Below are positions 11,006 through 63,161 of a DNA stretch of 64,000 nucleotides, piece by piece. The stretch is from positions 1 through 64,000 of the forward strand of contig CANPZS010000003.1 in the NCBI GenBank assembly GCA_947588835.1. The letters run 5' to 3'. A program made the position numbers and the translations under genes. The stretch's first letter is position 1, and each line of letters opens with the position of its first letter. The stretch is from an uncultured Bacteroidales bacterium. GTDB taxonomy: Bacteria > Bacteroidota > Bacteroidia > Bacteroidales > UBA932. Under the pieces are notes generated by a model. The model saw only the letters and a program-made list of their open reading frames with translations, was not told the DNA's origin and did not search any database.

Positions 11006-11049
11006 TGGAGGTCGATCAAACGACAGGATACTCTATTTGTCAGGACCTT

Positions 11050-45089: not shown

Positions 45090-46763
45090 TTATTCGGTCT
45101 TTCCGTTCAGGCTGTAGATGTAACCCTTGTTCTGGGCGGTTTCCGCAGTCCCGTTGTAAAGGGTGAGCTGGCCGCAGACGATCACGTCGTCGCCGACGGC
45201 GATCTGGGTGTCCCCTGTCTGCCATTTGCGGTTGCCGAGATACAGCACCCTGTAGGCTTCGAAGTCGAGGGCCTTGTCGTCGCTGTAAACTCCGTCCGCG
45301 GACATATAGAAGGTGGCGTTGCCATAGCTGCCGAACTCGCCGTTGTTGGCGATCTTGGAGATCTTGCCTGCGACATATAAAGCCTTACGGCCAGTGGCGC
45401 CGGACTCCAGCGCATTGGCGGCCTTTATGGCTCCCAGCGGGGTGAGCGGATCTTCGAGCGTGCCCCAGCCCTCGCTTTGGTCGGTCAGGCCGTTCACGCT
45501 GTAGACATAGGCCTTGCCGCTCGCAGTCTCGGGAGTGCCATTGTACACCGTCAAATGACCGCACAGGATTACCTCGTCGCCGACGGAAGGCGCATTGTCG
45601 CCATCAGCCCACTTCTTGTTGCCGAGCCACAATACGCGGTATGCCTCGAAATCGAGGGTATTGTCGTCATGGTAATCTCCGTCGTCAGAAATATAGAACG
45701 TGCCGTTGCCATACTGCGAGCCGAACGCGCCGTTGTTTGCATACTTGGATACTACGCCTTTCACGTAGAAGTCGGTAGCGGTCTCGCCGCCGAGAGCCGT
45801 GACGTATTCGATGGCCTCGGCGACAGTGAACGGTATCGCGAGGGTACCGGTGCGGCCGGCCTGGGTGAGCGTCTGCTGGGCGGTGTATTCCTTGCCGTCA
45901 TTGTCCTCCGTCCTGAAGGTGATGGTGGCGATGCGACCTCCGGCATTGTTCTCCGCAGCATGGAAGACTACGCTGCTGCCGGCAACCGAAGCGATCGACA
46001 GCCAATCAGCCGCATCCTCGGGAATCTCGACCCACAGGCCGGCGCCCTTGTTGGTGAGAGTGACTGCGACGTCGCCGCCGTCAACGGAGATGGAGGCATC
46101 CTCGGGATCGACTGATTCGACCTTGATGAGCGACTTGTTGATGTTGAGGACGGTCACGTCCACGAGCTCCACCGTTCCGCTATAGGTGGTCTTGGGACCC
46201 TCAACGGTAACCTCGTCTCCGACCTCGAGACCCAAGCTCAGGAAATTCTTTTCAGCTCCTTTGGCATCAAGCGTACCGTAGATGTAAACTTCGCCGGTTT
46301 CGTCTTGCAGATACCAGTTGCCGTATTGGGTGTTCACAATTGAGGTAACGGTGCCGGTCACGCGGTAGGTCTTGCTGTCCGGACCTGCGATAACCTCGGC
46401 GCAGGTGGCCTCGGAAACGCTGGCGACACCCTGTATCACATTGATGTGCTGGGTTGCGCCCTCGCAGGTCAGTAGGACTTCGCCGTTGCGGCCGTCAAGC
46501 GAGCCTTCGGCGGAGAAAGTGACGGAGGACTCGCCGGCCGAGCCCGACGCGGGGGACACCGTCAGCCAGTCGGGACCGCCGGAGATGGTCCAGCTGCCCG
46601 TGGCGCTGACGGAAATGGTGGTGGAGCCGCCCGCCGCCGGTATGGCGACGTACGAAGACGAAACCGTCACTTCGCTGAGATAAGTGGGGCCCTCTTCCTG
46701 GCATCCGGTCGCCGCGAGAGCGAGGGCCGCGGCCATGGAAGCGAAAATATATTTGGTTTTCAT
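45090..46763 (-). CDS. BACON-domain lipoprotein with repeated OB-like domains (module A)
   Basis: 557-aa surface lipoprotein (lipobox AATGC). A BACON domain (~30-115; YVAIPAAGGSTTISVSATG, WLTVSPASGSAGES) is followed by an OB-like unit starting ATCAEVIAGPDSKTYRVTGTV. A BACON-like stretch comes next, then two more OB-like units (TVAEAIEYVTALGGE...; TPLGAIKAANALESG...), each with GN(G/A)TFY and a LDFEAYRV segment. No catalytic motif. It sits 15 bp after the Oar-type receptor and has a paralogue in the same place in module B, so it is probably that receptor's surface partner. Function beyond that is unknown. Confidence 0.8.
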   Translation of the reverse strand: MKTKYIFASMAAALALAATGCQEEGPTYLSEVTVSSSYVAIPAAGGSTTISVSATGSWTISGGPDWLTVSPASGSAGESSVTFSAEGSLDGRNGEVLLTCEGATQHINVIQGVASVSEATCAEVIAGPDSKTYRVTGTVTSIVNTQYGNWYLQDETGEVYIYGTLDAKGAEKNFLSLGLEVGDEVTVEGPKTTYSGTVELVDVTVLNINKSLIKVESVDPEDASISVDGGDVAVTLTNKGAGLWVEIPEDAADWLSIASVAGSSVVFHAAENNAGGRIATITFRTEDNDGKEYTAQQTLTQAGRTGTLAIPFTVAEAIEYVTALGGETATDFYVKGVVSKYANNGAFGSQYGNGTFYISDDGDYHDDNTLDFEAYRVLWLGNKKWADGDNAPSVGDEVILCGHLTVYNGTPETASGKAYVYSVNGLTDQSEGWGTLEDPLTPLGAIKAANALESGATGRKALYVAGKISKIANNGEFGSYGNATFYMSADGVYSDDKALDFEAYRVLYLGNRKWQTGDTQIAVGDDVIVCGQLTLYNGTAETAQNKGYIYSLNGKTE

Positions 46764-46778: not shown

Positions 46779-49700
46779 TTAATTGAACAAATATTTGATA
46801 CCTATGGAAGCATACCAGCACTGGCCGAGAGCGTGGTTGAGTGTCCACGTCTGCGTGTTGCCGTTGATGGAGGCGGGAGTCGAGAACGTCGCATAGCCGT
46901 CCGCGTCTACGCCTTCATACTTGAGGATGCGCGCGTCGGAGCCGATGGCGGGGTTCAGGTACTTGGACACTCCCCAGCTGGAGTTGAACAGGTTCAGCAC
47001 GTTCTTGACGTCGAGGTTGAGCTGAAGGGTGTTGGTGGTCTTGCCGATCTTCACGGTAAAGTCGTGCTTGTAGCTCAGATCGATGCGGTGAACCCAGGGG
47101 TTGTATACGCTGTATGCCTCGGCATACTGGCCCTGATGCCTGCTCAGGTATTTGTCCTTGTGGACGTAGTCCATGAACCGGGTGGCGTCGTCGTTGCTGA
47201 CGAAGCGGAACTGGTTGGAGGATACTTCCTCGTCAGTAGGAACATAGATTGCGTCGTAGTTGTATCCGTCGCCGTTCATGTCGTTGGCAAGCATGTAGGA
47301 ATAGTTGTAGCCACCACGCCATGTCTCGTAGATGATGCTGTAGTGGTTGCCGCTCTTGTCGTCATGGGTGAGGGAAGCGACGAACCTATCCGGAGTCACA
47401 TACTGCGAATTGTGGAGCTGGATATAGTTGGGGCCTTCCACGGTAGGTACATAGGTGAATGCGGATTCAGCCGCCGAGCCGGGCATGCCGGTCACCTCTT
47501 TGTTCACCGTGTGGGTGTAGGCCGCCATGAGGCTCAGACCGTCGACCGGACGGGCGTTGAGGGTGACGCTGGCGGACCAGCCGTAGCCCTTGGAAGTGTT
47601 CTCAAGAACAAATGCCTTGGTGCCTGTACGATAGCTGTCCGGATAGAGAGGACGGTTGTCGACGCCGTTGAAGCGTGCGAAGCCGCCTATGTTGGGAATG
47701 CTCCAGTCGGAAATGGACACCGCATTGACAGTCTTGTTGAATATGCCCTCAGCCTCTATGGAGAGAGGGAAGGAAGTCGGGAACGAATAGTCGAAGGCGA
47801 TGGAAGTCTTCCATACCTGCGGCATCTTGAACTTCGGATCCACGCCGTTCACGGCAGACGGCACGGTGCCGTCCTCAGGTCTGATGGTGCTGGGATAGCC
47901 GAGCTGCAGAAGTTTCTGATAGAGAGCGTCGAGCGTCGCCTTGCCGTTGGCGTCGGTCACCAGGCCGCCGTTGAACACGTCCATCGAGAAGCCTTGTTTC
48001 TCGGCTGCCGATTTGTTTATTTGCGCCTGATATTGTACCATACCGCCGTTGGTCGGCATGTTGGTGAAGAACACGAGCGGGAGACGGCCGGAGAAGAGTC
48101 CGGTGCCGCCGCGTACCTTGAGCGACTTGTCGCCGAGGACGTCCCAGTTGAAGCCCACGCGCGGAGAGAGTGTCAAGTTGGCCGAAGGCCACTTGCCCGT
48201 GTCGATGTGCTGCTCGGCATAGCCGTGCGTCTTGGGATAATAGCTGAGCTGGAGAATGGCATTGTTGGTCATCAGGTCGCCGTTGTTGAAGAACAGGCCG
48301 TCGACGCGCAGGCCGGCGGTAAGCTTGAAGCGGTCGCTGACGTTCCATTCGTCCTGGCCGTAGAGGCCGGCCTTGTAGAACTGTACGCGGGCGGCGGGAG
48401 CGGTTTCACCGTCGTTTCCGTAGGTGAGGCAGACGATCTCGGGAGTGGCGCCGTTAAGGAAATCGCTTACAGAATTGTAGCGGTAATATCCCGAACCGTT
48501 GCGCATATAAGAGTTGTCGGCCATCTGATATTCGAAGCTGACGCCTCCGGTGATCTTGTGGGCGCCCGCATAGTAGGTGAGGTCGTCCTTGATGTTGGCT
48601 ACGGTGTTGTGCACCGCGTTGTTCCAGGTGAAGAGCTCATAGCCGAGGGCCATATAGTTGTTGGTTCCGGCGCCGCCGGTCAGATCACCGTCGAGGATGT
48701 CGATGAAAGGAAACTCATCGGAATTGGTTCCGCGGACGTCATCGAGCTTGGAATAGGTGGCGAGGAACTGGTTGGAGAGCTTGTCGCTCAGGCGGCTGTT
48801 GAGGTCGACCGAGAACGTGCTCACGATATTCTGCTGCGAATACATGGCGTTGGCGAAGGCCATGGAGTACTGCGACATACGGCTGCCGGGCATACGGGTG
48901 CCGCCGTCCATGGATGTGGCGTTCGTTGCCGACCAGCGGTTGTTGAGCGTATAGTTGTAGCGGAAAGCGAGATGATGCTTGTCGCTGATGTTCCAGTCGA
49001 GGCGGGCGAGGAGCTTGGTGTTGTTCTCGTCGGCGGGGAAGTCGGTCCAGGAACCCGTGTCGTAGCCGTATTTGGACTTCACGAATTCGGAAACCCTCTG
49101 GAGGTCCGCCTTGGTGGTGCGGGAAATGTAGTTGTCCGGATCGGCCACGCCGTTGGTAGAACCCTGCCAGCGGTTGGCGATCGTAGGGATCACCGCATAT
49201 TCGGCGTTGACGAAGAAGAACAGCTTGTTCTTCACGATGGGGCCGCCGAGAGTGAATCCGTAGGTGGTGGTGCGGTCCTTGGCCCTCGCTCCGCCTATCT
49301 GCTCGCCGTCAACGGTGTCACCGCGCATATTCTCGTTGCGGTGATATACATAGGCCGTTCCTTTGAAGGTGTTGGTACCGGACTTGGTGATGGCGTTCAC
49401 GCCACCGCCTATGAAGTTGGTCTGACGGACGTCGTAGGGCGAGATAACCACCTGCATTTCCTCGATGGCGTCGATGGAGATCGGGTTGCCGCCGCCGGGA
49501 AGGCCGTCGCTCAGACCGAAGTTATTGTTGAAGTTGGCTCCGTCTACGGTGAAGTTGGCGGTACGTCCGTCGGCTCCGGCGAAGGTCATGCCGTTTCCTC
49601 CGTAGGGAGAGAGACGCGTCACGTCCGTGATGCTGCGGCTGACGGTAGGCAGCGAAGTGATCTGCCTGCTGGTGATGTTGGTAGCCGCGCCGGTCTTCTC

Positions 49701-50096
49701 GGTGGCGAACTTGGAAGAGGCCGTCGAGATGACCACGGCCTCGCTGAGCATCTCGGCGTCATCCGACAACGAAGCGTTGAGGAAGTATGCTTCGGCGAGC
49801 TGGAGAGTGATGTCCGTGTAGGTGACATTGTTGAAGCCGAGGCAGCTTACCTCGACGGAGTAGGGACCGCCGGTGCGCATACCGTTGATGGAGAAACGGC
49901 CTTCGGCGTTGGTCACGGCATAGTACTGCGTGCCTGAAGGCGTGTGCACCGCGACGATCGCGGCTCCTGCGACAGGCTCGCCGTTCTTGTCGGCTACCCG
50001 GCCGCTGAGGGTTGATGTCGTCACCTGGGCAAAGGCAACGACGCCCGCAAACATGGTAATGAATGCGAGCATAACTTTTTTGAGTGTTTGTCTCAT
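46779..50096 (-). CDS. Oar-type TonB-dependent receptor (module A)
   Basis: 1105-aa outer-membrane receptor from Met at 50096 (MRQTLKKVMLAFITMFAGVVAFAQ signal). A carboxypeptidase-regulatory domain (~28-110), an Oar-like plug (TNITSRQITSLPTVSRSITD; FTVDGANFNNNFGLSDGLPGGG) and a large barrel ending GIKYLFN follow. No SusD neighbour. Its first 252 residues are identical to the receptor of module B, and the rest is mosaic, with long identical islands (e.g. KSKYGYDTGSWTDFPADENN) between divergent stretches. The ORF-track start at 50291 reads through the promoter region. Substrate unknown. Confidence 0.88.
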   Translation of the reverse strand: MRQTLKKVMLAFITMFAGVVAFAQVTTSTLSGRVADKNGEPVAGAAIVAVHTPSGTQYYAVTNAEGRFSINGMRTGGPYSVEVSCLGFNNVTYTDITLQLAEAYFLNASLSDDAEMLSEAVVISTASSKFATEKTGAATNITSRQITSLPTVSRSITDVTRLSPYGGNGMTFAGADGRTANFTVDGANFNNNFGLSDGLPGGGNPISIDAIEEMQVVISPYDVRQTNFIGGGVNAITKSGTNTFKGTAYVYHRNENMRGDTVDGEQIGGARAKDRTTTYGFTLGGPIVKNKLFFFVNAEYAVIPTIANRWQGSTNGVADPDNYISRTTKADLQRVSEFVKSKYGYDTGSWTDFPADENNTKLLARLDWNISDKHHLAFRYNYTLNNRWSATNATSMDGGTRMPGSRMSQYSMAFANAMYSQQNIVSTFSVDLNSRLSDKLSNQFLATYSKLDDVRGTNSDEFPFIDILDGDLTGGAGTNNYMALGYELFTWNNAVHNTVANIKDDLTYYAGAHKITGGVSFEYQMADNSYMRNGSGYYRYNSVSDFLNGATPEIVCLTYGNDGETAPAARVQFYKAGLYGQDEWNVSDRFKLTAGLRVDGLFFNNGDLMTNNAILQLSYYPKTHGYAEQHIDTGKWPSANLTLSPRVGFNWDVLGDKSLKVRGGTGLFSGRLPLVFFTNMPTNGGMVQYQAQINKSAAEKQGFSMDVFNGGLVTDANGKATLDALYQKLLQLGYPSTIRPEDGTVPSAVNGVDPKFKMPQVWKTSIAFDYSFPTSFPLSIEAEGIFNKTVNAVSISDWSIPNIGGFARFNGVDNRPLYPDSYRTGTKAFVLENTSKGYGWSASVTLNARPVDGLSLMAAYTHTVNKEVTGMPGSAAESAFTYVPTVEGPNYIQLHNSQYVTPDRFVASLTHDDKSGNHYSIIYETWRGGYNYSYMLANDMNGDGYNYDAIYVPTDEEVSSNQFRFVSNDDATRFMDYVHKDKYLSRHQGQYAEAYSVYNPWVHRIDLSYKHDFTVKIGKTTNTLQLNLDVKNVLNLFNSSWGVSKYLNPAIGSDARILKYEGVDADGYATFSTPASINGNTQTWTLNHALGQCWYASIGIKYLFN

Positions 50097-50159
50097 ATAA
50101 ATAAAGGTAAATATGAAATTGAATAGCTTCCTACCTAAAAGCGACGCGAATATACGACC
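49341..50159 (-). repeat. Long inverted repeat, arm A (receptor 5' region)
   Basis: Read on the minus strand, this matches 52354-53172 on the plus strand (paired coordinates sum to 102513). Identity is perfect over 359 bp (49786-50144) and nearly perfect beyond. The outer edge is the G of GGTCGTATATTCGC; beyond it the sequences differ completely. It covers the promoter -7 region, leader, signal peptide and plug of the receptor. Confidence 0.92.
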
Positions 50160-50175
50160 ATTTTTCGACAACAAA
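50147..50175 (-). promoter_or_regulatory. Putative promoter of receptor A at the repeat boundary
   Basis: On the minus strand TTTG (50172-50175), 17 nt, then TATATTCG (50147-50154). The -7 box is inside the inverted repeat; the -33 box is in the central segment and is not shared with side B at this spacing. A short AT-rich dyad (CGACAA...TTGTCG) overlaps the -33 region. Confidence 0.4.
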
Positions 50176-50294
50176 AAAAATTTTTGTCGCTTTTTATATG
50201 CCATATCGCCAAATGGCTGTATATGAGTGAAATATGTTTCAAAATAGGCTATCGAGGTCATATTCACCACGATGCGCGCGGCGGCACGCACCGT

Positions 50295-51551
50295 CTACCC
50301 GTAAAAGGCATCTTTGATCATGTCCACGGAGTCGAGCAGTTCCCAGCCGAAGAACTGAACTTCCTTCTCGACGGGCTTGCCGTTCTCCATCACGGTTACG
50401 GCCCGGCGGTAAGGCTTGCGCCCCATGTGGCCATAAGCCGCCGTAGGCTCGTAGATGGGGTTCTTGAGTCCGAACTTCTCTATGATTTTGGCGGGACGGA
50501 GGTCGAACAGTCCGCCTATCTTGGCGGCGATAGCGGCGTCATCCATGCCGTTGTGCGATGTTCCGTAGGTGTTTACGAATATGCTGACCGGCCTGGCGAT
50601 GCCTATCGCATAGGAAATCTGCACCAGCATTTCATCGGCTATCCCAGCCGCAACCATGTTCTTGGCTATGTAGCGCGCGGCGTATGCTCCGCTCCTGTCC
50701 ACCTTGGAGGCATCCTTGCCCGAAAAAGAGCCGCCGCCGTGCGCACCCTTGCCGCCGTAGGTGTCGACTATTATCTTGCGGCCGGTCAGTCCCGTATCCC
50801 CGTGCGGGCCGCCTATGACGAATTTGCCGGTAGGATTGACGTGCAGGATGAAGTCGTCCCTGAACAGCGCCGCAGTATCTGCCGGCAGCGTAGATTTCAG
50901 CTTGGGCAGCAATATGTTGCGCACGTCGTTGGCGATGCGTTCGTGCATGGCCTTGTCCGTGGCGAATTCATCGTGCTGGGTGGATATTACTATGGTGTGG
51001 ATGCGCACCGGCCTGCCCGTCTTTCCGTCATATTCTATGGTGAACTGCGACTTGGCGTCGGGACGCAGGTACGGCATCAGCTGCGGTTCGTTGCGGCGGA
51101 TGTCCGCCAGAATCATCAGGGCACGATGCGAAAGATAAAGCGGCAGCGGCATGTATTCCTCCGTATCACGGCAGGCATAGCCGAACATCATGCCCTGGTC
51201 CCCGGCTCCCTGTTCGTCGGCGTCGCCCCTCACCACTCCGCGGTTGATGTCCGGGCTTTGCTCGTGCAGGGCCGAAAGGACGCCGCAAGAATTGCCGTCG
51301 AACATATATTCCGCCTTGTCGTATCCTATCCTGTTGATCACCCGGCGCACGGTGCCCTGTATGTCGACATACGCGTCCGAAAGCACCTCGCCCATCACTA
51401 CGACCATGCCGGTGCTGCAGAAGGTTTCGCAGGCGACTTTGGACTCGGGGTCCCTGCGCAGAAATTCATCGAGTATGGCATCCGATATCTGGTCCGCCAC
51501 TTTATCCGGATGTCCCTCGGACACAGATTCTGAAGTGAACAAATAATTCAT
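50295..51551 (-). CDS. metK: S-adenosylmethionine synthetase
   Basis: Makes SAM from methionine and ATP. Motifs: FTSESVSEGHPDKVADQISD, the GAGDQG-type loop in ADEQGAGDQGMMFGYA, GGPHGDTGLTGRKIIVDTYGG and GGGSFSGKDASKVDRSGAYAARYIAKN. 418 aa, the longer Bacteroidota form. It is an essential-type gene lying inside a segment bounded by long inverted repeats and next to a DNA invertase. Its own promoter and leader (51552-51704) are also inside, so control should move with it. Confidence 0.97.
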   Translation of the reverse strand: MNYLFTSESVSEGHPDKVADQISDAILDEFLRRDPESKVACETFCSTGMVVVMGEVLSDAYVDIQGTVRRVINRIGYDKAEYMFDGNSCGVLSALHEQSPDINRGVVRGDADEQGAGDQGMMFGYACRDTEEYMPLPLYLSHRALMILADIRRNEPQLMPYLRPDAKSQFTIEYDGKTGRPVRIHTIVISTQHDEFATDKAMHERIANDVRNILLPKLKSTLPADTAALFRDDFILHVNPTGKFVIGGPHGDTGLTGRKIIVDTYGGKGAHGGGSFSGKDASKVDRSGAYAARYIAKNMVAAGIADEMLVQISYAIGIARPVSIFVNTYGTSHNGMDDAAIAAKIGGLFDLRPAKIIEKFGLKNPIYEPTAAYGHMGRKPYRRAVTVMENGKPVEKEVQFFGWELLDSVDMIKDAFYG

Positions 51552-51572
51552 GGCAATGCATCATTATTAAAA

Positions 51573-51594
51573 AGCTCCGCAGGAATGCGGAGCT
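51573..51594 (-). terminator. Terminator-like hairpin in the metK leader
   Basis: Minus-strand AGCTCCGC-ATTCCT-GCGGAGCT followed by TTTTTAATAATG, between the riboswitch and the metK start. Eight perfect base pairs plus a U tract make a convincing attenuator. The 5' foot (TTTTAGC, 51592-51598) is complementary to GCTAAAA (51614-51620) in the aptamer tail, which suggests a competing antiterminator. Confidence 0.7.
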
Positions 51595-51611
51595 AAAACT
51601 ACAATAATATA

Positions 51612-51660
51612 ATTTTTAGCATTTTTTTGTGTGGTTGCAAGCAGCCAAATCTATCCACAT
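51612..51660 (-). ncRNA. SAM-II-like riboswitch upstream of metK
   Basis: On the minus strand: 5-bp stem TGTGG/CCACA, a loop with GATTTGG...CTTGCAA directly before the 3' strand of the stem, then an A-rich stretch ending AATGCTAAAAA. The conserved bits (GAUUU, UUGCAA abutting P1, and GCUAAAAA) and their order match the SAM-II pseudoknot class as I recall it. Location in the leader of metK, a SAM-pathway gene, supports this. Covariance-model scoring was not possible here. Confidence 0.75.
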
Positions 51661-51672
51661 TCTTTTCGACGG

Positions 51673-51704
51673 CAAATATAGCCATTCCTTCCCTACAAAA
51701 CAAA
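51673..51704 (-). promoter_or_regulatory. metK promoter
   Basis: Minus strand: TTTG (51701-51704), 20-nt spacer, TATATTTG (51673-51680). It is one of the best Bacteroidota consensus matches in the window and predicts a ~115-nt leader holding the riboswitch. Confidence 0.65.
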
Positions 51705-51718
51705 TTGAAGCGGGCGCG

Positions 51719-52318
51719 TCACATGAAAGTTTTTATGAAACGGTGCACCGTGCTCCTGTCCACGCCGCATATGTCCGCGATGCGGCTTTTAGGCACGCCG
51801 GACTGCAGCAGTTGCCTTATCTGCTCTCTTTTGGGATAAAGCTTGTACTTTGACGCATCGCTTTTCCGCCCCTTGGGCCGTCCGAGCACCTGTCCCTCGG
51901 CCTTTTTCCTGCAAAGGGCCTCCTTGGTCCGCTGGCTTATCAGGTTGCGTTCTATCTCAGCCGACAGCCCGAACGCAAACGCAAGCACCTTGCTCTGGAT
52001 GTCCTCGCCGAGACGATACCCATCCTTCACCGTCCACACCCGGCAGCCTTTGGTCATGCACAGATTCAGAATCTCCATGATCATGAACAAATTGCGTCCG
52101 AGGCGCGACAGCTCGGCACATATTATAAGGTCGTCTTCGCCTACCCTGTCCAACAATTTCCCGAGCGCCCGCTTGGCGTACGCCGTCGTCCCGCTGATGG
52201 TCTCCTCTATCCATCCGTCTATCGCAAGACCTTCCTTCCTGCAGAACTTCATAATTTCAAACCTTTGATTTTCAACAGTCTGTTTGTCACTGCTAACTCT
52301 TATGTATCCGTAGATCAT
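51719..52318 (-). CDS. Mpi-like serine site-specific recombinase (DNA invertase)
   Basis: 199-aa serine recombinase of the resolvase/invertase family. Catalytic motif YGYIRVSSDKQTVENQ (nucleophile Ser at 9-10), ELSRLGRN (active-site Arg residues), FGLSAEIERNLISQRTKEAL (dimer helix) and a C-terminal helix-turn-helix (GVPKSRIADICGVDRSTVHRFI). It closely resembles Bacteroides Mpi, the master invertase of phase-variable promoters. The start is Met at 52318; the ORF-track extension runs into the repeat. It lies between two inverted copies of a receptor 5' end, the likely substrate. The promoter box is TATATTTG at 52345-52352. Confidence 0.9.
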   Translation of the reverse strand: MIYGYIRVSSDKQTVENQRFEIMKFCRKEGLAIDGWIEETISGTTAYAKRALGKLLDRVGEDDLIICAELSRLGRNLFMIMEILNLCMTKGCRVWTVKDGYRLGEDIQSKVLAFAFGLSAEIERNLISQRTKEALCRKKAEGQVLGRPKGRKSDASKYKLYPKREQIRQLLQSGVPKSRIADICGVDRSTVHRFIKTFM

Positions 52319-52344
52319 TGTATGACAATTTGTAATTAATGCGT

Positions 52345-52352
52345 CAAATATA
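52345..52352 (-). promoter_or_regulatory. -7 box of the invertase gene, overlapping the dyad
   Basis: Minus-strand TATATTTG, an exact match, 27 bp before the invertase ATG. It overlaps the left arm of the dyad at 52347-52364, so a bound recombinase would cover its own promoter. Confidence 0.5.
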
Positions 52353-52364
52353 CGGTCGTATATT
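52347..52364. other. Candidate invertase crossover site, side B
   Basis: AATATACG-GT-CGTATATT: two perfect 8-bp arms around a 2-bp asymmetric centre, the architecture of serine-invertase sites. The shared inverted repeat starts at the last base of the left arm (52354). On side A the equivalent site (50149-50166, minus strand) keeps the GT centre and right arm, but its left arm matches only at 4 of 8 positions. Confidence 0.55.
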
Positions 52365-53172
52365 CGCATCGCTTTTAGGTAGGAAGCTATTCAATTTCAT
52401 ATTTACCTTTATTTATATGAGACAAACACTCAAAAAAGTTATGCTCGCATTCATTACCATGTTTGCGGGCGTCGTTGCCTTTGCCCAGGTGACGACATCA
52501 ACCCTCAGCGGCCGGGTAGCCGACAAGAACGGCGAGCCTGTCGCAGGAGCCGCGATCGTCGCGGTGCACACGCCTTCAGGCACGCAGTACTATGCCGTGA
52601 CCAACGCCGAAGGCCGTTTCTCCATCAACGGTATGCGCACCGGCGGTCCCTACTCCGTCGAGGTAAGCTGCCTCGGCTTCAACAATGTCACCTACACGGA
52701 CATCACTCTCCAGCTCGCCGAAGCATATTTCCTCAACGCTTCGCTGTCGGATGACGCCGAGATGCTCAGCGAGGCCGTGGTCATCTCGACGGCTTCTTCC
52801 AAGTTCGCCACCGAGAAGACCGGCGCGGCTACCAACATCACCAGCAGGCAGATCACTTCGCTGCCCACCGTCAGCCGCAGCATCACGGACGTGACACGTC
52901 TCTCTCCCTACGGAGGAAACGGCATGACCTTCGCAGGCGCCGACGGACGTACCGCCAACTTCACCGTGGACGGAGCCAACTTCAACAACAACTTCGGTCT
53001 GAGCGACGGCCTGCCCGGCGGCGGCAACCCGATCTCCATCGACGCCATCGAGGAAATGCAGGTAGTTATCTCGCCCTACGACGTCCGTCAGACCAACTTC
53101 ATAGGCGGCGGCGTGAACGCCATCACCAAGTCTGGCACCAACACTTTCAAGGGAACGGCTTACGTATATCAT
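52354..53172 (+). repeat. Long inverted repeat, arm B (receptor 5' region)
   Basis: Counterpart of 49341-50159. There is one mismatch at 52368, then 359 bp identical (52369-52727), then scattered mostly silent differences to about 53172, after which the genes diverge. The two arms enclose 2.2 kb with metK and the invertase gene. Confidence 0.92.
52359..52366 (+). promoter_or_regulatory. -7-like box of receptor B
   Basis: TATATTCG in the repeat, same as on side A. The nearest upstream TTTG (52329-52332) is 26 nt away, longer than the usual 19-21, so this promoter may be weak or off in the present orientation. Confidence 0.35.
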
Positions 53173-55719
53173 CAAAACGAGAACATACAGGGTGACGCAG
53201 TGTACGGCGAACAGATTTCCGGCGCAAGGGCCAAGGACCGCACAACCACCTACGGATTCACTCTCGGCGGCCCTATCGTGAAGAATAAATTGTTCTTCTT
53301 TATCAACGCAGAAATGGTGAAAATACCCACCGTAGTAAACCGTTGGAGAGGTTCCGAGGACGGAGAAGCGGACGAGACCAATTATGTATCCCGTACGAGT
53401 ATTGAGGATCTACAGGCAGTTTCTGAATTCGTAAAGTCCAAATACGGCTACGACACGGGTTCCTGGACCGACTTCCCCGCCGACGAGAACAACACCAAGC
53501 TCCTCGCCCGCCTCGACTGGAACATCAGCGACAAGCATCATCTCGCTTTCCGCTATAACTACACGAACAATTTTTCATGGAGTTCTCCGAATGCTACTTC
53601 TATGGACGGAGGCACACGTTCTGCCTATAGCCGTATGTCCTTGTATTCCATGTCATTCGCGAATTCGATGTATTCAATGAAGAATCTCGTGAGCACGTTC
53701 TCTCTTGATCTAAACAGCCGACTGAGCGACAAACTTTCCAACCAGTTCCTCGCCACCTATTCCAAGCTTGACGATGTCCGCGGATCCAATTCCGACGAAT
53801 TCCCGTTCATTGACATCCTCGACGGTTCCGATGATGTGAACAACTATATGGCCCTCGGCTACGAACTTTTCACCTGGAATAATGCGGTGCACAATACGGT
53901 ATGGAACATCAAGGACGACCTCACTTATTATGCAGGGAATCATAAGATTACCGGAGGCGTCAGTGTGGAATACCAGATGGCAGACAACGCCTATATGCGT
54001 AACGGTACGGGATATTACCGCTACAAATCCGTGGATGACTTCCTTCATGGCGAAACTCCCGAAGTCGTCTGCCTCACCTACGGATACGACGGTGAAACCA
54101 ATCCCGCCGCACGCGTGCAGTTCTACAAGGCTGGCATCTACGGCCAGGACGAATGGAATGCCAGCGACCGCTTCAAACTTACCGCCGGCCTGCGCATCGA
54201 CGGACTGTTCTTCAACAACAACGACCTGATGACCAACAACGCCATTCTCCAGCTCAACTATTATCCCAAGTCCTATGGAAACGCGGAAACGCATATTGAC
54301 ACCGGCAAGTGGCCTTCCGCAGGCATTACCTTATCTCCTCGCATCGGCTTCAACTGGGACGTCCTCGGCGACAAGTCGCTCAAGGTACGCGGCGGTACCG
54401 GACTCTTCTCCGGACGTCTCCCGCTCGTGTTCTTCACCAACATGCCCACCAACAGCGGTATGGTACAGTTCCAAGCCCAGATAAACAGCAAGGAAGCAGA
54501 AGAAAAAGGCTTTGACATGACAGCCTTTAAAGGAGGTCTCGTAACCGACGCCGACGGCAAAGCGACTATAAAAGCCTTATATGACAGACTCATCAGTCTC
54601 GGATATCCCGAAACAATATCTCCTGAAGACGGTGAAGTCCCTTCATCCATTTCCGCAGTGGATCCAAAATTCAAGATGCCGCAGGTATGGAAGACATCCA
54701 TTGCGGTGGATTATTCGTTCCCCACGTCATTCCCATTCTCCGTCACGGCAGAAGGAATATTCAACAAGACGATAAACGGCGTATCCGTTTCCGACTGGAG
54801 CATGCTGCCCGTAGAAGGATACACACATTGGAAAGGCGCGGACAACAGACCTATCTATCCATCCAACTTCCGCACCACTACCAAAGCATTCGTACTTGAG
54901 AACACATCCAAGGGCTATGGCTGGTCAGCCAGCGTCACTCTCAACGCCCATCCGATCGACGGCTTGGGACTCATGGCGGCATACACCCATACAGTAAGCA
55001 AAGAGGTGACCGGCATGCCCGGCTCGGTAGCCGAATCTGCATTCACTTATGTGCCCACAAGCCATGGTCCCAACTACATAAAGCTCCACAATTCGCAATA
55101 TGTGACTCCGGATCGCTTTGTAGCATCAGCAACCATTGATGACAAGAGCAACAACCACTTCAGTGTCATCTACGAAACTTGGCGAGGCGGATACAGCTAC
55201 TCTTATATGTTGGCGAACGACATGAACGGTGACGGATATGGCTATGACGCCCTTTATATTCCTACTGACGAGGAGGTATCCTCCAACCAGTTCCGCTTCG
55301 TCAGCAACGACGACGCCACCCGGTTCATGGACTATGTCCACAAGGACAAATACCTGAGCAGGCATCAGGGCCAATATGCTGAACCTTACAGTGTATACAA
55401 CCCGTGGGTGCACAGAATAGATCTCAGTTACAAACACGATTTCAAAGTCAAGACTGGCGGCAGCACGAATATTCTCCAACTCAGTTTTGACCTAAAGAAC
55501 CTGCTGAACCTGTTCAATTCGAGCTGGGGCGTAAGCAAGCAGATCAATCCTGATATCACCGAGGCCAGAATTCTCAAGTATGAAAATACCGATGCCGACG
55601 GTTACCCTGTATTCTCAACTCCTAAAAAAGTTAATGGGGACCTCAAGACATTCACTCCGGTCTATTCGCTTGGCCAATGCTGGTATGCCTCTGTCGGGAT
55701 AAAATATATGTTCAACTAA
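52417..55719 (+). CDS. Oar-type TonB-dependent receptor (module B)
   Basis: 1100-aa paralogue of the module A receptor, from Met at 52417. Same signal peptide, regulatory domain and plug (residues 1-252 identical). The barrel is mosaic: divergent blocks (IPTVVNRWRGSEDGEADETN versus the A version) alternate with near-identical DNA, such as 53437-53560 and 55275-55370. The divergent blocks lie in barrel segments, which probably include surface loops. It ends GIKYMFN. Followed after 15 bp by its lipoprotein partner. Substrate unknown. Confidence 0.88.
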   Translation: MRQTLKKVMLAFITMFAGVVAFAQVTTSTLSGRVADKNGEPVAGAAIVAVHTPSGTQYYAVTNAEGRFSINGMRTGGPYSVEVSCLGFNNVTYTDITLQLAEAYFLNASLSDDAEMLSEAVVISTASSKFATEKTGAATNITSRQITSLPTVSRSITDVTRLSPYGGNGMTFAGADGRTANFTVDGANFNNNFGLSDGLPGGGNPISIDAIEEMQVVISPYDVRQTNFIGGGVNAITKSGTNTFKGTAYVYHQNENIQGDAVYGEQISGARAKDRTTTYGFTLGGPIVKNKLFFFINAEMVKIPTVVNRWRGSEDGEADETNYVSRTSIEDLQAVSEFVKSKYGYDTGSWTDFPADENNTKLLARLDWNISDKHHLAFRYNYTNNFSWSSPNATSMDGGTRSAYSRMSLYSMSFANSMYSMKNLVSTFSLDLNSRLSDKLSNQFLATYSKLDDVRGSNSDEFPFIDILDGSDDVNNYMALGYELFTWNNAVHNTVWNIKDDLTYYAGNHKITGGVSVEYQMADNAYMRNGTGYYRYKSVDDFLHGETPEVVCLTYGYDGETNPAARVQFYKAGIYGQDEWNASDRFKLTAGLRIDGLFFNNNDLMTNNAILQLNYYPKSYGNAETHIDTGKWPSAGITLSPRIGFNWDVLGDKSLKVRGGTGLFSGRLPLVFFTNMPTNSGMVQFQAQINSKEAEEKGFDMTAFKGGLVTDADGKATIKALYDRLISLGYPETISPEDGEVPSSISAVDPKFKMPQVWKTSIAVDYSFPTSFPFSVTAEGIFNKTINGVSVSDWSMLPVEGYTHWKGADNRPIYPSNFRTTTKAFVLENTSKGYGWSASVTLNAHPIDGLGLMAAYTHTVSKEVTGMPGSVAESAFTYVPTSHGPNYIKLHNSQYVTPDRFVASATIDDKSNNHFSVIYETWRGGYSYSYMLANDMNGDGYGYDALYIPTDEEVSSNQFRFVSNDDATRFMDYVHKDKYLSRHQGQYAEPYSVYNPWVHRIDLSYKHDFKVKTGGSTNILQLSFDLKNLLNLFNSSWGVSKQINPDITEARILKYENTDADGYPVFSTPKKVNGDLKTFTPVYSLGQCWYASVGIKYMFN

Positions 55720-57890: not shown

Positions 57891-59042
57891 TTATTTCTTT
57901 ATCAGCCGGAGTGCCCAGCCGGCCAAGGGATTGGGAATGCAGTATAGCCCGCCGTTTTCCTGCATGTTGTTCATCGAAAAACGGATTCGGCGCTCAGGGT
58001 TGTATTTTTCCGTATAAACGGAAAGGCTCCGGCCGGAGGTGTTTCCCTCAGCTTTTACTTCTATCGGCACAGCCGCTCCGTCCACATCGATGAGGAATTC
58101 GATTTCCGCCCTTCCTTCCGAAACCCAATAGAAAGGCTTTTCGCCGTCCAGTTGCGGCAGCAGGGCCTGCAGGACGACATTCTCGGCCATTGCACCCTTG
58201 AACTCCGTATAGCCTGCATTCCGGTTCTGTATCACGTCCGCCCTGACTCCGGCCAGACGGCGGAGCATGCCGCAATCGCAGGCGTAGAGTTTGAAAGCCT
58301 CACGGTCTTCGTAGCCGCCGAGCGGTATGCCAGGCTTGGAGACATTGAAAATCTGATATACCAGGCCGGCATCGGCCAGCCACGCAATGGCGGATTCATA
58401 GTCCCTGGCCCTCGCTCCGGTACGGACGACGCGATAGATGAATTTCCTGTTTTCCTTGCTGAGCTGGGCAGGCAAGCTGCGCCAGACAGCGCGGATACGG
58501 GTCACTCCCTGCGGCTCCGCATATTTGGAAAAATCAACCTCGTCCAAATTCAAGATGTCCTGAAGGGCGGCGTCAATCTCGGCCATCCCCGCACCGTCCA
58601 GCATCAAGGATGCGCTCTCCGGCATTCCCCCGCAAATCTGATAGCGCCTGAATTCGGAAACGAGTCTGTTGAATATGACGACTGGAATGCACTCCGGCCC
58701 GTCTATACTGTCAACATATTCGAAAACTGACGGATCGGACATACGAAGGAATTCCCTGAACGTGACCGGATACATGTCAATCTTGTTCACCTTCCCTACC
58801 GGTACTTTCATCCGCTTGCGTCTGACTGCGACCCCGAGCAGCGACCCGGCTGCGATGATGTGGTAATCCGGAGCGTCTTCGCAGAAATATTTGAGGGCGT
58901 TGAAGACATCTTCGCTTTCCTGTATTTCGTCGAAGAAGACAAGTGTCCTGCCAGGCAGGAGCGGCACGTCGCTGTAGGCCTGCAGTTCTTTGATTACGCG
59001 GGCCGGCTCTTTGGAAATCCGGATATCCCGTCTGATTTCCAT
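57891..59042 (-). pseudogene. AAA_14/DUF4143 ATPase lacking its P-loop
   Basis: The protein from Met at 59042 has the Walker B region (TLVFFDEIQESEDVFNALKYFCE), sensor-like IAAGSLLGVAV, and the C-terminal DUF4143 nuclease-like part (FYWVSEGRAEIEFLIDVDGAAVPIEVKAE). The whole N-terminal segment with Walker A (GxRQVGKS) is absent, about 40-60 residues. The first seven residues, MEIRRDI, look like the start of a different AAA_14 subfamily, so an internal deletion may have fused two such genes. Without a P-loop it should not bind ATP normally. The rest of the frame is open, so it may be recently inactivated or still produced. Confidence 0.7.
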
Positions 59043-59049
59043 AAATACA

Positions 59050-59100
59050 CAAATAAGTGCCGAAATATGTGCAACGACAACACTTTTCTGCACTTATTTG
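59050..59100 (-). promoter_or_regulatory. 11-bp inverted repeat in the leader of the truncated ATPase
   Basis: CAAATAAGTGC (59050-59060) and GCACTTATTTG (59090-59100) are perfect complements separated by 29 bp. They lie between the -7 box and the start codon at 59042, so the transcript would begin with a stem-loop. Confidence 0.7.
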
Positions 59101-59130
59101 CAAATATAGCGGATTTTGCCAAAATGCCAA
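59101..59130 (-). promoter_or_regulatory. Promoter of the truncated ATPase gene
   Basis: Minus strand TTG (59128-59130), 19 nt, TATATTTG (59101-59108), abutting the inverted repeat. A good consensus match in front of a gene that has lost its 5' coding part. Confidence 0.5.
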
Positions 59131-59246
59131 GATTGTCCGCAGCGTTTTTTTTCAATTTGCCCTCAAAGAAGATCGGGCGCACTGACTTTTGAGCAAAATC
59201 AATGACAGATTTGAGTAAAATCTTTTCAAGATTTGAACATTTTTGA

Positions 59247-59254
59247 TATCTTTG
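59247..59254 (+). promoter_or_regulatory. -7 box of the intact ATPase gene
   Basis: TATCTTTG, exact TAnnTTTG, 21 bp before the ATG at 59276. It supports that start over the ORF-track start at 59243. Confidence 0.55.
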
Positions 59255-59275
59255 CGGCAGACGAATCAGCGAGTT

Positions 59276-60460
59276 ATGTATAGACGATTGCAATATGACG
59301 AACTGGCGGCACGACTGGCGGAACCGCGCAGGATGATTCAGGTTGTTTCCGGCCCTCGCCAGGTGGGAAAATCCACCATGGTCAAACAGGTATTGCAGGA
59401 AACGGATGTTCCCCATATGCTCGTGTCGGCGGACAGTATTTCCAAAGACAATACGGCGTGGATCGGCGAGACGTGGGAAACCGCACGGGCACGTATGCAT
59501 GTCGGCGGACATACCGAGTATCTGCTCGTCATCGACGAGGTACACAAGATAGACAACTGGAGCGAGGAGGTCAAGAGGCAATGGGACACCGACTCTTTCA
59601 ACGATGTTAACCTGAAAGTAGTCCTGCTCGGCTCATCGCGCCTGCTGCTCAAAGACGGCCTGACGGAGTCGCTGGCGGGACGCTATGAATTGATACGGAT
59701 GCCCCATTGGAGTTATCGGGAGATGCACGAGGCGTTCGGCCTGGATGTCGAGCATTATATTTTCTTCGGCGGCTATCCGGGCGGTGCGCACCTGACGGGC
59801 AACGAAACGCGGTGGCGGAAATACATCAAGGACAGCATCATAGCACCGGCCATCGAGCGCGATATACTGATGACGAAGACCGTCTACAAACCCGAGCTGA
59901 TGAAACAACTTTTCATGCTGGGCTGCACATATTCGGGCGAGGAAATTTCGTTGACAAAGCTGCTCGGACAGCTACAGGATGCCGGCAATGTCACTACGCT
60001 GGCGAACTATATGACGACGCTCGACGAGTCGCAACTGCTGTGCGGCCTGCAAAAATATGCCAACGACAATGCGCGCAAATACAATTCCATACCCAAGCTC
60101 TGCGTCTATAACACCTCGCTGTTGAGCGCATTGTCCGGAACTGCTTTCGAAAAGGCATATACAGCGCCGGCCAAGTGGGGCCGTTGGGTGGAGAGTGCCG
60201 TGGGAGCGCATCTCCTTAACTACGCCGAAGAACAAGATTATAAGGTTTATTATTGGCGCGCCGGCAACAAGGAGGTGGATTTCGTGATCGAGAGCAACCG
60301 GCAGTGCATTGCCATAGAGGTCAAGAGCGGCGGCCGCACCGTGAATGCCGGTCTGGCGGAGTTCGCCGGACGGTTTCACCCGAAGCACTCGTTCGTCGTA
60401 GGCCCGGGCGGAGTTCCTGTCGAGGAGTTTTTGCAGTGGAATATCAGCGAACTGTTTTAA
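59276..60460 (+). CDS. AAA_14/DUF4143 family ATPase
   Basis: 394-aa ATPase with Walker A VVSGPRQVGKSTMVKQVL (~20-37), Walker B YLLVIDEVHKIDNW (~90), sensor VVLLGSSRLLL and a C-terminal DUF4143/PD-(D/E)XK-like part with VYYWRAGNKEVDFVIESN...IAIEVKSGG (D, E and K in place). Widespread in Bacteroidota and archaea, function unresolved. It is divergent from the truncated relative at 57891-59042 and from a different subfamily, judging by sequence. Confidence 0.87.
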   Translation: MYRRLQYDELAARLAEPRRMIQVVSGPRQVGKSTMVKQVLQETDVPHMLVSADSISKDNTAWIGETWETARARMHVGGHTEYLLVIDEVHKIDNWSEEVKRQWDTDSFNDVNLKVVLLGSSRLLLKDGLTESLAGRYELIRMPHWSYREMHEAFGLDVEHYIFFGGYPGGAHLTGNETRWRKYIKDSIIAPAIERDILMTKTVYKPELMKQLFMLGCTYSGEEISLTKLLGQLQDAGNVTTLANYMTTLDESQLLCGLQKYANDNARKYNSIPKLCVYNTSLLSALSGTAFEKAYTAPAKWGRWVESAVGAHLLNYAEEQDYKVYYWRAGNKEVDFVIESNRQCIAIEVKSGGRTVNAGLAEFAGRFHPKHSFVVGPGGVPVEEFLQWNISELF

Positions 60461-60514
60461 CGCTCGTCAGCGTTGCAGCCGCATCGATTTTGATTCCCCG
60501 CCCGTCAAAAAGTA

Positions 60515-60565
60515 GGGAGAAAATCGAAAACGATGGGGAGAAAAAGACAAAAAGCAGGGAGAAAA
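60515..60565 (+). promoter_or_regulatory. Three 21-bp-spaced direct repeats before fic
   Basis: GGGAGAAAA occurs at 60515-60523, 60536-60544 and 60557-60565, exactly 21 bp apart, so on the same face of the helix. The last copy ends three bases before the -7 box. The layout suggests a binding array for a regulator. Confidence 0.65.
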
Positions 60566-60568
60566 CAT

Positions 60569-60576
60569 TATTTTTG
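60569..60576 (+). promoter_or_regulatory. -7 box of the fic gene
   Basis: TATTTTTG, exact TAnnTTTG, 17 bp before the ATG at 60594. The GTG used by the ORF track (60576) overlaps it and is therefore unlikely as a start. Confidence 0.55.
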
Positions 60577-60593
60577 TGCGAAAGGTAAAAAAT

Positions 60594-61394
60594 ATGCAGA
60601 CCGATCTCGAGAGATTGATTTTCCTCTACCGGAATTCGGGAATAGACACGCAGATAGACTACGACAAGTTCTATTTGTACTCACTTGTTACCAATTCCAC
60701 AGCCATTGAGGGTTCCACCCTTACAGAGCTTGAAAATCAGATCATGTTCGACCAGGGCATCAGCCTGAAAGGAAAGAGCCTCACTGAGCAGAACATGAAT
60801 CTGGATCTTAAAAACGCCTATGAGACGGCCATAAAATGGGCTCATGCCCATACGGAGATTACGGTTGATTTGTTGAAAAGTCTGTCCGCCCTTGTCATGA
60901 AGAATACCGGACAGGATTACAAGACTGCGTTGGGAGACTTTTCATCCGCACGTGGAGACTTGCGTCTGCTGAATGTCTCGGCCGAAGCCGGAGGCAAATC
61001 GTATATGAATTACAGTAAGGTTCCTGTAAAACTTGAGGAGTTTTGTACATGGCTGAACAAGGAACGGAAAGATTGCGCAAACAAAAGTGTCGTACAATTA
61101 TACGAGATCAGTTTTGATGCCCATTATCATCTGGTAACGATACATCCGTGGGCTGATGGCAACGGCAGGATGGCGCGCCTTGTGATGAATATGCTTCAGT
61201 TCGAGTTCGGCCTCATTCCGGCAAAAATTCTCAAGGACGATAAGGAGGAGTATATCAAGGCATTGGTAAAGACCCGTGAAAACGATGACCTGAGTATATT
61301 CCGGGAGTTCATGACTGCCGACATGGTCAAAAACCTGACTCTTGACATTGAGACGTATCGTAAGTCCGTCGACGACATTCCGGAAAGCAGATAG
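60594..61394 (+). CDS. fic: Fic-domain protein (probable AMP transferase)
   Basis: 266-aa Fic protein from Met at 60594. The Fic core HPWADGNGRMAR is intact, so AMP transfer from ATP to a target hydroxyl is expected. An N-terminal inhibitory motif of type (S/T)xxxE(G/N) is present in NSTAIEGS, placing it in the self-inhibited class II. Target unknown. It stands alone with its own promoter. After the TAG stop the same frame continues for 23 codons resembling a winged-helix tail (see findings). Confidence 0.9.
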   Translation: MQTDLERLIFLYRNSGIDTQIDYDKFYLYSLVTNSTAIEGSTLTELENQIMFDQGISLKGKSLTEQNMNLDLKNAYETAIKWAHAHTEITVDLLKSLSALVMKNTGQDYKTALGDFSSARGDLRLLNVSAEAGGKSYMNYSKVPVKLEEFCTWLNKERKDCANKSVVQLYEISFDAHYHLVTIHPWADGNGRMARLVMNMLQFEFGLIPAKILKDDKEEYIKALVKTRENDDLSIFREFMTADMVKNLTLDIETYRKSVDDIPESR

Positions 61395-61467
61395 AAAATC
61401 GAAGGAATCCTCAAACGCATCGGGCCGGACAAAGGCGGCCATTGGGAGCCGGTCGGGGAAAAATAAA

Positions 61468-61487
61468 TTATACCCATTATGGTATAA
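61468..61487 (+). promoter_or_regulatory. Palindromic operator before the hip genes
   Basis: TTATACC-CATTAT-GGTATAA is a perfect 7-bp dyad. A further half-site GGTATAA lies at 61522-61528, flanking the -7 box at 61504-61511. HipB of E. coli binds TATCC(N8)GGATA operators, so self-repression by the adjacent HipB is likely. Confidence 0.75.
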
Positions 61488-61503
61488 TGTCAAATATTTG
61501 TAT

Positions 61504-61511
61504 TAATTTTG
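61504..61511 (+). promoter_or_regulatory. -7 box of the hipBST operon
   Basis: TAATTTTG, exact TAnnTTTG, between the palindrome and the downstream half-site, 30 bp before hipB. Confidence 0.55.
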
Positions 61512-61540
61512 CACCCGATAAGGTATAACTTCAAGAAACT

Positions 61541-61747
61541 ATGTATAATCTCTCTGCTACTGTCAAGATGTTGCGGAAGCAATATAAACTGACGCAAGAG
61601 GATCTTTCATTGAAGTCGGGCGTAGGGCTGCGCTTTGTACGGGACCTTGAACAAGGAAAGGAAACGCTGCGCCTCGATAAAGTGAATCAGCTTCTTGATT
61701 TTTTCAATTATGAGATGGTAGCCTCATCAAAAAACGATAATCCATGA
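61541..61747 (+). CDS. hipB: HipB-like XRE antitoxin/repressor
   Basis: 68-aa helix-turn-helix protein (LRKQYKLTQEDLSLKSGVGLRFVRDLEQGK), nearly all of it the Cro/C1 domain, of the type annotated as Y4mF-family antitoxin. It probably represses its own operon through the dyad at 61468-61487 and joins a complex with the two downstream products. Stop and the next start overlap (ATGA). Confidence 0.87.
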   Translation: MYNLSATVKMLRKQYKLTQEDLSLKSGVGLRFVRDLEQGKETLRLDKVNQLLDFFNYEMVASSKNDNP

Positions 61748-62082
61748 GACAGGCTGAGATCTTTTACAAAGACCGGCCGGCCGGGATCTTGACAGAAAAC
61801 GATACCGGATATGAGTTTTATTATCTGCCGGAATATCTGCTTTCGGAAACAGCCAGGCCGATCAGTCTGACATTGTCCTTGCAGGAAAAAATATACACAA
61901 GTCCTACGCTGTTTCCTTTTTTTGACGGGCTGATCCCCGAAGGGTGGCTGTTGGACGTGGCATTGCGCAATACGGACATCAGTATACTCGACCGGATGTC
62001 TTTGCTGCTGACCTGCTGCAAGGATTGCATCGGTGCGGTCAGCGTCGTTCCCGTTGAAGAAAAAGATGAAGGCCATGTGTAA
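61744..62082 (+). CDS. hipS: HipS-like antitoxin (HipA N-terminal subdomain)
   Basis: 112-aa protein equal to the N-subdomain-1 of HipA, made as a separate chain: AEIFYKDRPAGILTENDTGYEFYYLPEYL, FPFFDGLIPEGWLLDVAL, LLTCCKDCIGAVSVVP. In the tripartite HipBST systems this small protein, and not HipB, neutralises the kinase. Gene order B-S-T and overlaps on both sides agree with that arrangement. Confidence 0.82.
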   Translation: MRQAEIFYKDRPAGILTENDTGYEFYYLPEYLLSETARPISLTLSLQEKIYTSPTLFPFFDGLIPEGWLLDVALRNTDISILDRMSLLLTCCKDCIGAVSVVPVEEKDEGHV

Positions 62083-63016
62083 ATGTCTATATTGTTATCG
62101 TCCGCTCCTGAAAGGGGAAAAGGACATGCACGACGCCTGTGTCAAGAAGTTTTTCGGGACAACGGCTTTGCCCGTCTTGGACTACACGACGGCGCAACTG
62201 GATCAGCTCGCCCTGCAGATTATTCAGGAAAAGACGTCTCTTACCGGCGTCCAGCCGAAGCTGTCTCTGCATCTGAATGAGCATGAGGGCAGCAAGCGAT
62301 TGACCATCGTCGGGCTTTGGGGCGGCTATATATGCAAACCGCAGAGTCCCCGATATGAATTGATGCCGGAGGTGGAGGATTTAACCATGCATCTTGCGGA
62401 AGAAGCACGCATTGATGTGGTTCCCCACACGTTGATGCGGATGGCGGACAATACGCTCTGCTATCTCACCCGCCGGATTGACCGGACGCCTGACGGAGAG
62501 AAGATCGCAATGGAAGATATGTGCCAGTTGACCGAAAGGCAGACGGAACATAAATATAAAAGCAGCTATGAGCAGGTCGGAAAGGCGATTTTGAAATACT
62601 CGTCTATGCCCAGAATGGATGTTGTCAATTTCTTCGAATCAGTGCTTTTCTCATGGCTGACGGGGAACAACGATATGCACCTAAAGAATTTCTCTCTGTT
62701 TGAAACAGCGGACAAGATCCGTTTGACACCTGCCTATGATCTGTTGAATGCGGCTATCATCAATCCTAAAGATGATGAAGAACTGGCATTGACCTTAAAT
62801 GGCCGGAAGAAGAAGATTCAGCGGGAGGATTTTATCAAATCGGCAGCCGTCCTGAATATAGAAGCAATAATTGTAGAACGGCTGATAAATAAGTATATCA
62901 AGCTATTGCCCAAGTTTGACGCAGTCATTCTAAACTCTTTTTTAAGTGCTGAACTTAAAGAAAAGTATGCTGAATTATTGCGGGAACGGCTTGGCCGGCT
63001 GTCTCAAAAGTATTAA
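62066..63016 (+). CDS. hipT: HipT/HipA-family serine-threonine kinase toxin
   Basis: 316-aa HipA-fold kinase lacking the N-terminal subdomain that the preceding gene encodes. It starts with a small cysteine cluster (CKCLYCYRPL...DAC). The glycine-rich loop SLTGVQPKLSL carries the Ser expected for autophosphorylation; catalytic Asp in GNNDMHLKNFS and metal-binding Asp in TPAYDLLNA are present. Known relatives phosphorylate aminoacyl-tRNA synthetases; the target here is unknown. Start 62066 overlaps hipS by 17 bp; Met at 62075 is an alternative. The kinase appears intact. Confidence 0.85.
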   Translation: MKAMCKCLYCYRPLLKGEKDMHDACVKKFFGTTALPVLDYTTAQLDQLALQIIQEKTSLTGVQPKLSLHLNEHEGSKRLTIVGLWGGYICKPQSPRYELMPEVEDLTMHLAEEARIDVVPHTLMRMADNTLCYLTRRIDRTPDGEKIAMEDMCQLTERQTEHKYKSSYEQVGKAILKYSSMPRMDVVNFFESVLFSWLTGNNDMHLKNFSLFETADKIRLTPAYDLLNAAIINPKDDEELALTLNGRKKKIQREDFIKSAAVLNIEAIIVERLINKYIKLLPKFDAVILNSFLSAELKEKYAELLRERLGRLSQKY

Positions 63017-63040
63017 CATATGCCGTCTATATGAGGAAAT

Positions 63041-63140
63041 CCTGTTTTCCGTGAGACACCCGAATTGACGAAACAATCAGTCTCTCACGCGTCTGTAGGG
63101 CATCTTTTTGTCAAAAGTCCAAAAATTTGCGGAAAACAGG
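63041..63140. repeat. Inverted repeat in the hipT-abiEii intergenic region
   Basis: CCTGTTTTCCG (63041-63051) and CGGAAAACAGG (63130-63140) are perfect complements 78 bp apart. Nested inside are CGTGAGA (63050-63056) and TCTCACG (63083-63089). The two genes converge here, so it could act as a bidirectional terminator or be a small structured element. Confidence 0.6.
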
Positions 63141-63161
63141 AAAGACCAACTGCCGAGATCT

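Follow-up and report, generated by a model that had tools for sequence, protein, structure and literature searches.

Genes and repeats at the locus

The locus described in the current work lies in a 64-kb stretch of DNA from the genome of an uncultured Bacteroidales bacterium (hereafter the window), and the coordinates of its features are collected in Table 1. Two paralogous receptor genes enclose a segment of approximately 2.2 kb, which carries metK together with a gene for a serine recombinase, and each receptor gene is followed by a probable surface-lipoprotein gene, a BACON domain being present in one of them (45090-46763). The recombinase matches the Mpi equivalog model NF009949 over residues 1-198 with a score of 327 bits (cut-off 272), and its layout, consisting of a resolvase domain (PF00239) and a C-terminal HTH_7 domain, is that of a small serine recombinase. 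Its RVS and LSRLGR motifs, containing the catalytic Ser and Arg, align to solved structures of DNA invertases and of gamma-delta resolvase. The 5' parts of the two receptor genes are located on the homologous arms of inverted repeat I2, which extends over 1217 nt at 92% identity.

Two further observations concern the surroundings of these genes. A hairpin (AGCTCCGC...GCGGAGCT) at 51570-51600, between the recombinase gene and metK, may end transcription of the recombinase gene or form part of the metK leader. A run of ATPase-like, Fic-like and HipA-like genes, as read by eye from the translations, follows the receptor-2 operon on its downstream side (57891-63956).

Table 1 Features of the proposed inverton and of the genes that flank it (coordinates of the window).
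Feature	Position	Strand	Remarks
Mpi-family serine recombinase, 199 aa	51719-52318	-	NF009949, PF00239, HTH_7
Proposed invertible segment, ~2.2 kb, with metK and recombinase	50159-52354		Between two inverted sites
metK, methionine adenosyltransferase	50295-51551	-	TIGR01034; within segment
Receptor 1, outer-membrane barrel and carboxypeptidase-regulatory-like domain	46779-50096	-	PF25183, PF13620; faces end B
Receptor 2, receptor 1 paralogue	52417-55719	+	PF25183, PF13620; faces end A
Left homologous arm: receptor 1 -7 box, 5' UTR, 5' coding part	48943-50159	-	Inverted repeat I2
Right homologous arm: receptor 2 -7 box, 5' UTR, 5' coding part	52354-53570	+	Inverted repeat I2
Site A: dyad AATATACG-GT-CGTATATT	52347-52364	+	Proposed crossover core GT 52355-52356; homology edge 52354
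Site B: GGTCGTATATTCGC	50146-50159	-	Inverted with respect to site A; proposed core GT 50158-50157
Receptor 2 -7 box TATATTCG	52359-52366	+	Fixed arm; two bases downstream of core
Receptor 1 -7 box TATATTCG	50147-50154	-	Fixed arm; promoter alignment
Segment end B: upstream half of receptor promoter (TTTTGTTGTCGAAAAAT)	50160-50190	-	Matrix score +10.8
Segment end A: without upstream half-promoter	52323-52353	+	Matrix score -13.6
Putative recombinase -7 box TATATTTG	52345-52352	-	Overlaps left dyad arm

Coincidence of a dyad with the edge of homology

A preliminary description of this DNA had pointed to a dyad with perfect 8-bp arms around a GT dinucleotide at site A, and to receptor homology that begins one base before this GT, and both observations are borne out by the sequence and by alignment of the arms. 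The left arm of the dyad (52347-52354) and its right arm (52357-52364) enclose the GT, and the homology between the receptor arms begins at 52354 at site A and at 50159 at site B, being one base ahead of GT on both sides. To the left of this edge the arms mismatch at offsets -1, -3 and -5 and at most positions beyond, while to its right a single mismatch is encountered at +14 (52368, where the receptor-2 arm has A and the receptor-1 arm has G), past which the arms are identical for approximately 360 bp before decaying as a mosaic, with identity later falling to about 80%. The 2-bp cores at the two sites are identical and inverted relative to each other (52355-52356 on the plus strand and 50158-50157 on the minus strand), and the frame of Mpi inverted repeats, G-NN-CG, is present at both sites as G-GT-CGTATATT. 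Serine recombinases need matching 2-bp cores, and the serine invertases Hin and Gin recombine around such a core.

Site A is the sole perfect 8-bp dyad with a 2-bp spacer in the window; when the local 172 bp are shuffled under a Markov-1 model, one arises with P=0.005, or with P=0.03 if any spacer from 0 to 6 is allowed. Taken alone, the dyad is evidence of modest weight. The strong part of the evidence is its coincidence with the homology edge and the recurrence of this coincidence in other genomes.

The perfect 8-bp dyad as such does not qualify as a conserved binding site, being absent from site B and from a related locus in another genome (L196, see below). The left half of site B, GAAAAATG, is non-dyadic, with 4/8 arm positions pairing versus 8/8 at site A, and L196 is a poor dyad as well (5/8). 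The outer parts of the arms, AATAT and ATATT, mostly represent two -7 boxes, i.e. AATATA of the recombinase and TATATT of the receptor, in agreement with the overlap noticed previously. What stands of the dyad as a site is its inner part, ACG/CGT, which fits Mpi sites, whereas perfect 8-bp arms are not needed; the conserved part is, judging from the loci compared, the G-NN-CG frame with A/T-rich flanks. Exact copies of GGTCGTATATTCGC in the 2.15-Mb genome (104 contigs) number only two, namely sites A and B, and a search for further targets returned 11 near-matches with one or two mismatches versus 12 for a reversed-pattern control.

The same locus plan in congeneric genomes

The motif GGTCGTATNTTYGC and its reversed control were searched in 400 genomes of the same genus. 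Single copies occur at about the rate of the control and are often situated within unrelated genes, and lone copies as extra targets were rejected, among them two additional copies in G206 (L149 and L150). Inverted pairs less than 3 kb apart are present in 3/400 genomes, these being the window, G019 (26235-/28474+) and G206 (30397-/31068+), and each of the three pairs encloses an Mpi recombinase with receptors outside, the recombinases of G019 and G206 being 67% and 74% identical, respectively, to that of the window.

In these three genomes one and the same G marks the beginning of homology between the arms (window 52354/50159, L137 9475/7249, L138 8069/7411); the edge base and the core are conserved while everything leftward differs. 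The stretch shared exactly from the edge is 28 bp in L138 and 15 bp in L137, within arms of 83-85% identity over 312-313 bp. A fourth locus, L196, follows the same plan with a TT core, reading [C/G]-TT-CGTATTTTTGCC. In L137, L138 and L196 the recombinase gene is located inside the segment, as in the window, and in 4/4 receptor loci it starts at end A and reads toward end B. In contrast, metK, which is presumably essential, lies inside the segment in the window and outside it in the other three loci, from which it follows that it was captured by, or moved into, the segment in the lineage of the window. The neighbourhood common to L137, L138, L196 and L185 comprises metK and smpB, with miaA in two of the first three. 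The four receptor loci may stem from one ancestral inverton, in which case their agreement would reflect conservation rather than four independent events.

Divergent receptor pairs also occur without a recombinase. In L181-L184 the receptors are approximately 90-170 bp apart, and the pair in L185 carries GGTCGTAT at one receptor promoter; no promoter-located inverted repeats were found in the recombinase-free pairs L181-L185, where the repeats sit in coding sequence. At L197 (G129:C2:24000-39000, 4229-11560) an Mpi-family recombinase is situated between two divergent SusC-like genes whose arms are approximately 73% alike, and no exact repeat of length 14 or more was found beside this recombinase.

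Position of the homology edge across Mpi-family loci

Exact repeats beside Mpi recombinases served to locate the repeat edges, with no motif being assumed. At most Mpi loci the edge coincides with a dinucleotide that is followed by CG, or precedes it by one to two bases, reading G-AG-CG at hsdS genes (including L136, see below), G-GT-CG at the receptor loci and at another hsdS type, TT-CG in L196, G-AA-CG in L198 and A-AA-CG in L057. Among 27 Mpi pairs, the number with copy-to-copy identity rises from 6-8 at offsets -4 to -2 to 26 at -1 and 27 at the core, a step which is partly by construction, since cores were assigned by rule from the edges. The recurrence of CG is not by construction, and CG follows the core in all but 2/27 loci (CC or CA in those). 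Four loci fitted no core rule, of which L137 was added from its own alignment and three were left out of the 27.

The hsdS invertons L191 (G335:C14) and L193 (G412:C30) represent the same inverton in two species, present in opposite arrangements, with the ends exchanged with respect to the flanks. Their outer junction lies inside a 21-bp repeat, GAGCGATTATGTGCAGACACA, which begins at the edge, and their comparison reveals a second exchange within the genes as well. Among the loci compared, opposite arrangements were seen for hsdS relatives and not for the window locus, the nearest relative of the window recombinase being about 77% identical.

The published Mpi repeat of Bacteroides fragilis, ARACGTTCGTN, reads ACG-TT-CGT, and the repeat of B. 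intestinalis, GTTCGTTTAA, reads G-TT-CGT (G-TT-CGTTTAA), both in the frame described above (PMC8375218). Crossover by a serine invertase at the GT core, as put forward in the preliminary description, gains support from this published repeat, from the common edge in three genomes, from the TT-core locus L196, from the 27 Mpi loci and from the hsdS junctions of L191 and L193; this support is comparative and falls short of proof.

An explanation devoid of site-specific exchange would regard the dyad as back-to-back -7 boxes and the edge as the limit of a duplication that took in a receptor gene and its core promoter. It would account for the coincidence of the outer dyad arms with TATATTTG and TATATTCG, and for the receptor pairs that occupy the same neighbourhood without a recombinase, including the one with GGTCGTAT at a receptor promoter. 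We consider it improbable, given that the motif occurs in inverted pairs around Mpi recombinases only, that the edge base and core are retained where the leftward sequence is different in every case, and that hsdS loci, which involve no -7 box, have this edge frame too.

A predicted receptor promoter divided at the proposed core

The bases that lie upstream of the core were scored with a promoter matrix, built by aligning 55 further receptor promoters of the genus at their -7 boxes. End B of the four loci, the segment end remote from the recombinase start, scores +10.8, +11.5, +6.0 and +7.9 (P<=0.002 versus same-base shuffles; P=0.0002 for the +10.8 of the window versus shuffles of its own bases), while end A scores from -13.5 to -17.8. 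Resemblance to ordinary receptor promoters is thus confined to one segment end in 4/4 loci, which assigns the upstream half-promoter to that end only, and the fit of end B is exactly in register with the -7 box of the arm. A complete promoter on the invertible segment, as is usual in Bacteroidales, was not found at this locus, where the -7 box is on the fixed arm and the upstream half is on end B. Judged from sequence, the receptor that faces end B would possess a whole promoter and the other would not, and inversion would swap the receptors; as assembled, receptor 1 is predicted to be ON and receptor 2 to be OFF. The putative -7 box of the recombinase is kept in L138, together with the receptor box, and is absent from L137 and L196.

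The coupling of recombination to expression that had been proposed earlier is retained insofar as the crossover is tied to a promoter, but division of this promoter explains it better than binding or repression by the recombinase. A variant with site-specific inversion would have expression switched mainly by read-through of the co-oriented recombinase and metK transcripts: in the assembled orientation both genes point toward end B and receptor 1, and at each of the four loci the recombinase gene runs from end A to end B. This variant is unlikely, because the segments of L137, L138 and L196 do not include metK, and because the match of end B to ordinary receptor promoters is in register with the -7 box of the arm.

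Proposed mechanism

The reading that accounts best for these sequences, to which we assign a probability of roughly 0.77, is a split-promoter switch, in which an Mpi-family invertase acting at the GT cores would impose either/or expression of the two receptors. The two GT dinucleotides, at 52355-52356 and 50158-50157, would represent the 2-bp crossover cores of the local recombinase, and exchange between the two inverted sites would flip the 2.2-kb segment with metK and the recombinase gene. As the core would lie inside the receptor promoter, the -7 box, the 5' UTR and the gene would stay on each fixed arm and the upstream half-promoter would ride on end B alone. Only the receptor facing end B, being receptor 1 as assembled, would then have a complete promoter, and a flip would pass this promoter to receptor 2. 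The flipped junctions are predicted to read CGAAAAATGGTCGTATATTCGCATCGC where end B joins the receptor-2 arm and CAAATATACGGTCGTATATTCGCGTCGC where end A joins the receptor-1 arm. We infer catalysed inversion at the window locus, the exact positions of cleavage and the ON/OFF outcome from the comparisons given above.

That homologous recombination between the long arms inverts the segment while the recombinase works elsewhere is very improbable: the 1.2-kb arms at 92% identity, with their 360 identical bases, indicate that gene conversion or homologous exchange has acted here as well, yet L138 and L137 have the same edge and recombinase position with only a short edge identity, the motif has no other genomic copy, and the other Mpi recombinase of this genome (L136) has its own repeat with core AG.

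If the split-promoter switch is correct, a gut bacterium could express one of two outer-membrane receptors at a time and change over by a single flip, with the crossover dividing the promoter itself. The comparison would also provide a rule for placing Mpi-family crossovers, with the edge of identity one base before a variable 2-bp core that is usually followed by CG, and this rule could be used in genomes even where long repeats hide the crossover site. A tentative extension, which is slightly less likely than not to hold, is that the constant G-NN-CG frame leaves the variable 2-bp core to serve as an address, which would insulate several Mpi paralogues of one genome from each other (GT here and AG in the hsdS inverton of contig C1) and which, having been placed inside a promoter in this lineage, would make a self-contained either/or receptor switch.

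Comparison with known systems

Mpi of B. fragilis acts as a master enzyme on at least 13 targets located at a distance (PMC4747536; PMC5903667). The window recombinase resembles it in family (NF009949), in the ACG-NN-CGT frame, in an edge located one base before the 2-bp centre and in the control of surface structures. It differs from the master enzyme in having one local site pair rather than many spread targets, and the core is GT here versus TT in the Mpi repeats of B. fragilis and B. intestinalis. The capsule promoters of B. intestinalis are located wholly on an invertible segment of 183-186 bp (PMC8375218), unlike the present locus, where the -7 box and the upstream promoter half would be separated by the crossover and where the segment contains metK and the recombinase gene.

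Tsr0667 of B. fragilis performs shufflon-type multiple inversions at three SusC/SusD gene clusters (PMC4747536). As in that shufflon, DNA inversion at the window locus would select among outer-membrane receptor genes. The difference is that a serine recombinase and one site pair are present here; the Tsr0667 recombinase we take to be of the tyrosine class.

The resemblance to Hin and Gin lies in the catalytic fold and motifs, the best solved relatives being DNA invertases (4m6f, 3uj3), whereas their sequence identity to the window recombinase is low and the Mpi equivalog model fits far better. Inversion by Hin moves a whole promoter along with the segment.

The hsdS invertons (L136, L191 and L193) have recombinases 76-78% identical to that of the window and a G-NN-CG edge in the same place. 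They differ in that the core is mostly AG, in that the recombinase is outside the repeats, and in that the site overlaps the hsdS start, with coding sequence being exchanged instead of a promoter half. L136 (G000:C1:98000-112557) contains the second Mpi recombinase of the window's genome (8055-8663), and its repeats (8664-8976 and 10241-10553) are 313 bp in length and 99% identical, with the edge G-AG-CGTTTTTG. At L198 (G364:C4), which is not at receptor genes, the recombinase is located inside repeats at approximately 5865-5891 and 9831-9857 with the edge G-AA-CGTTATTTTTC, and a 17-bp repeat pair adjoins the recombinase.
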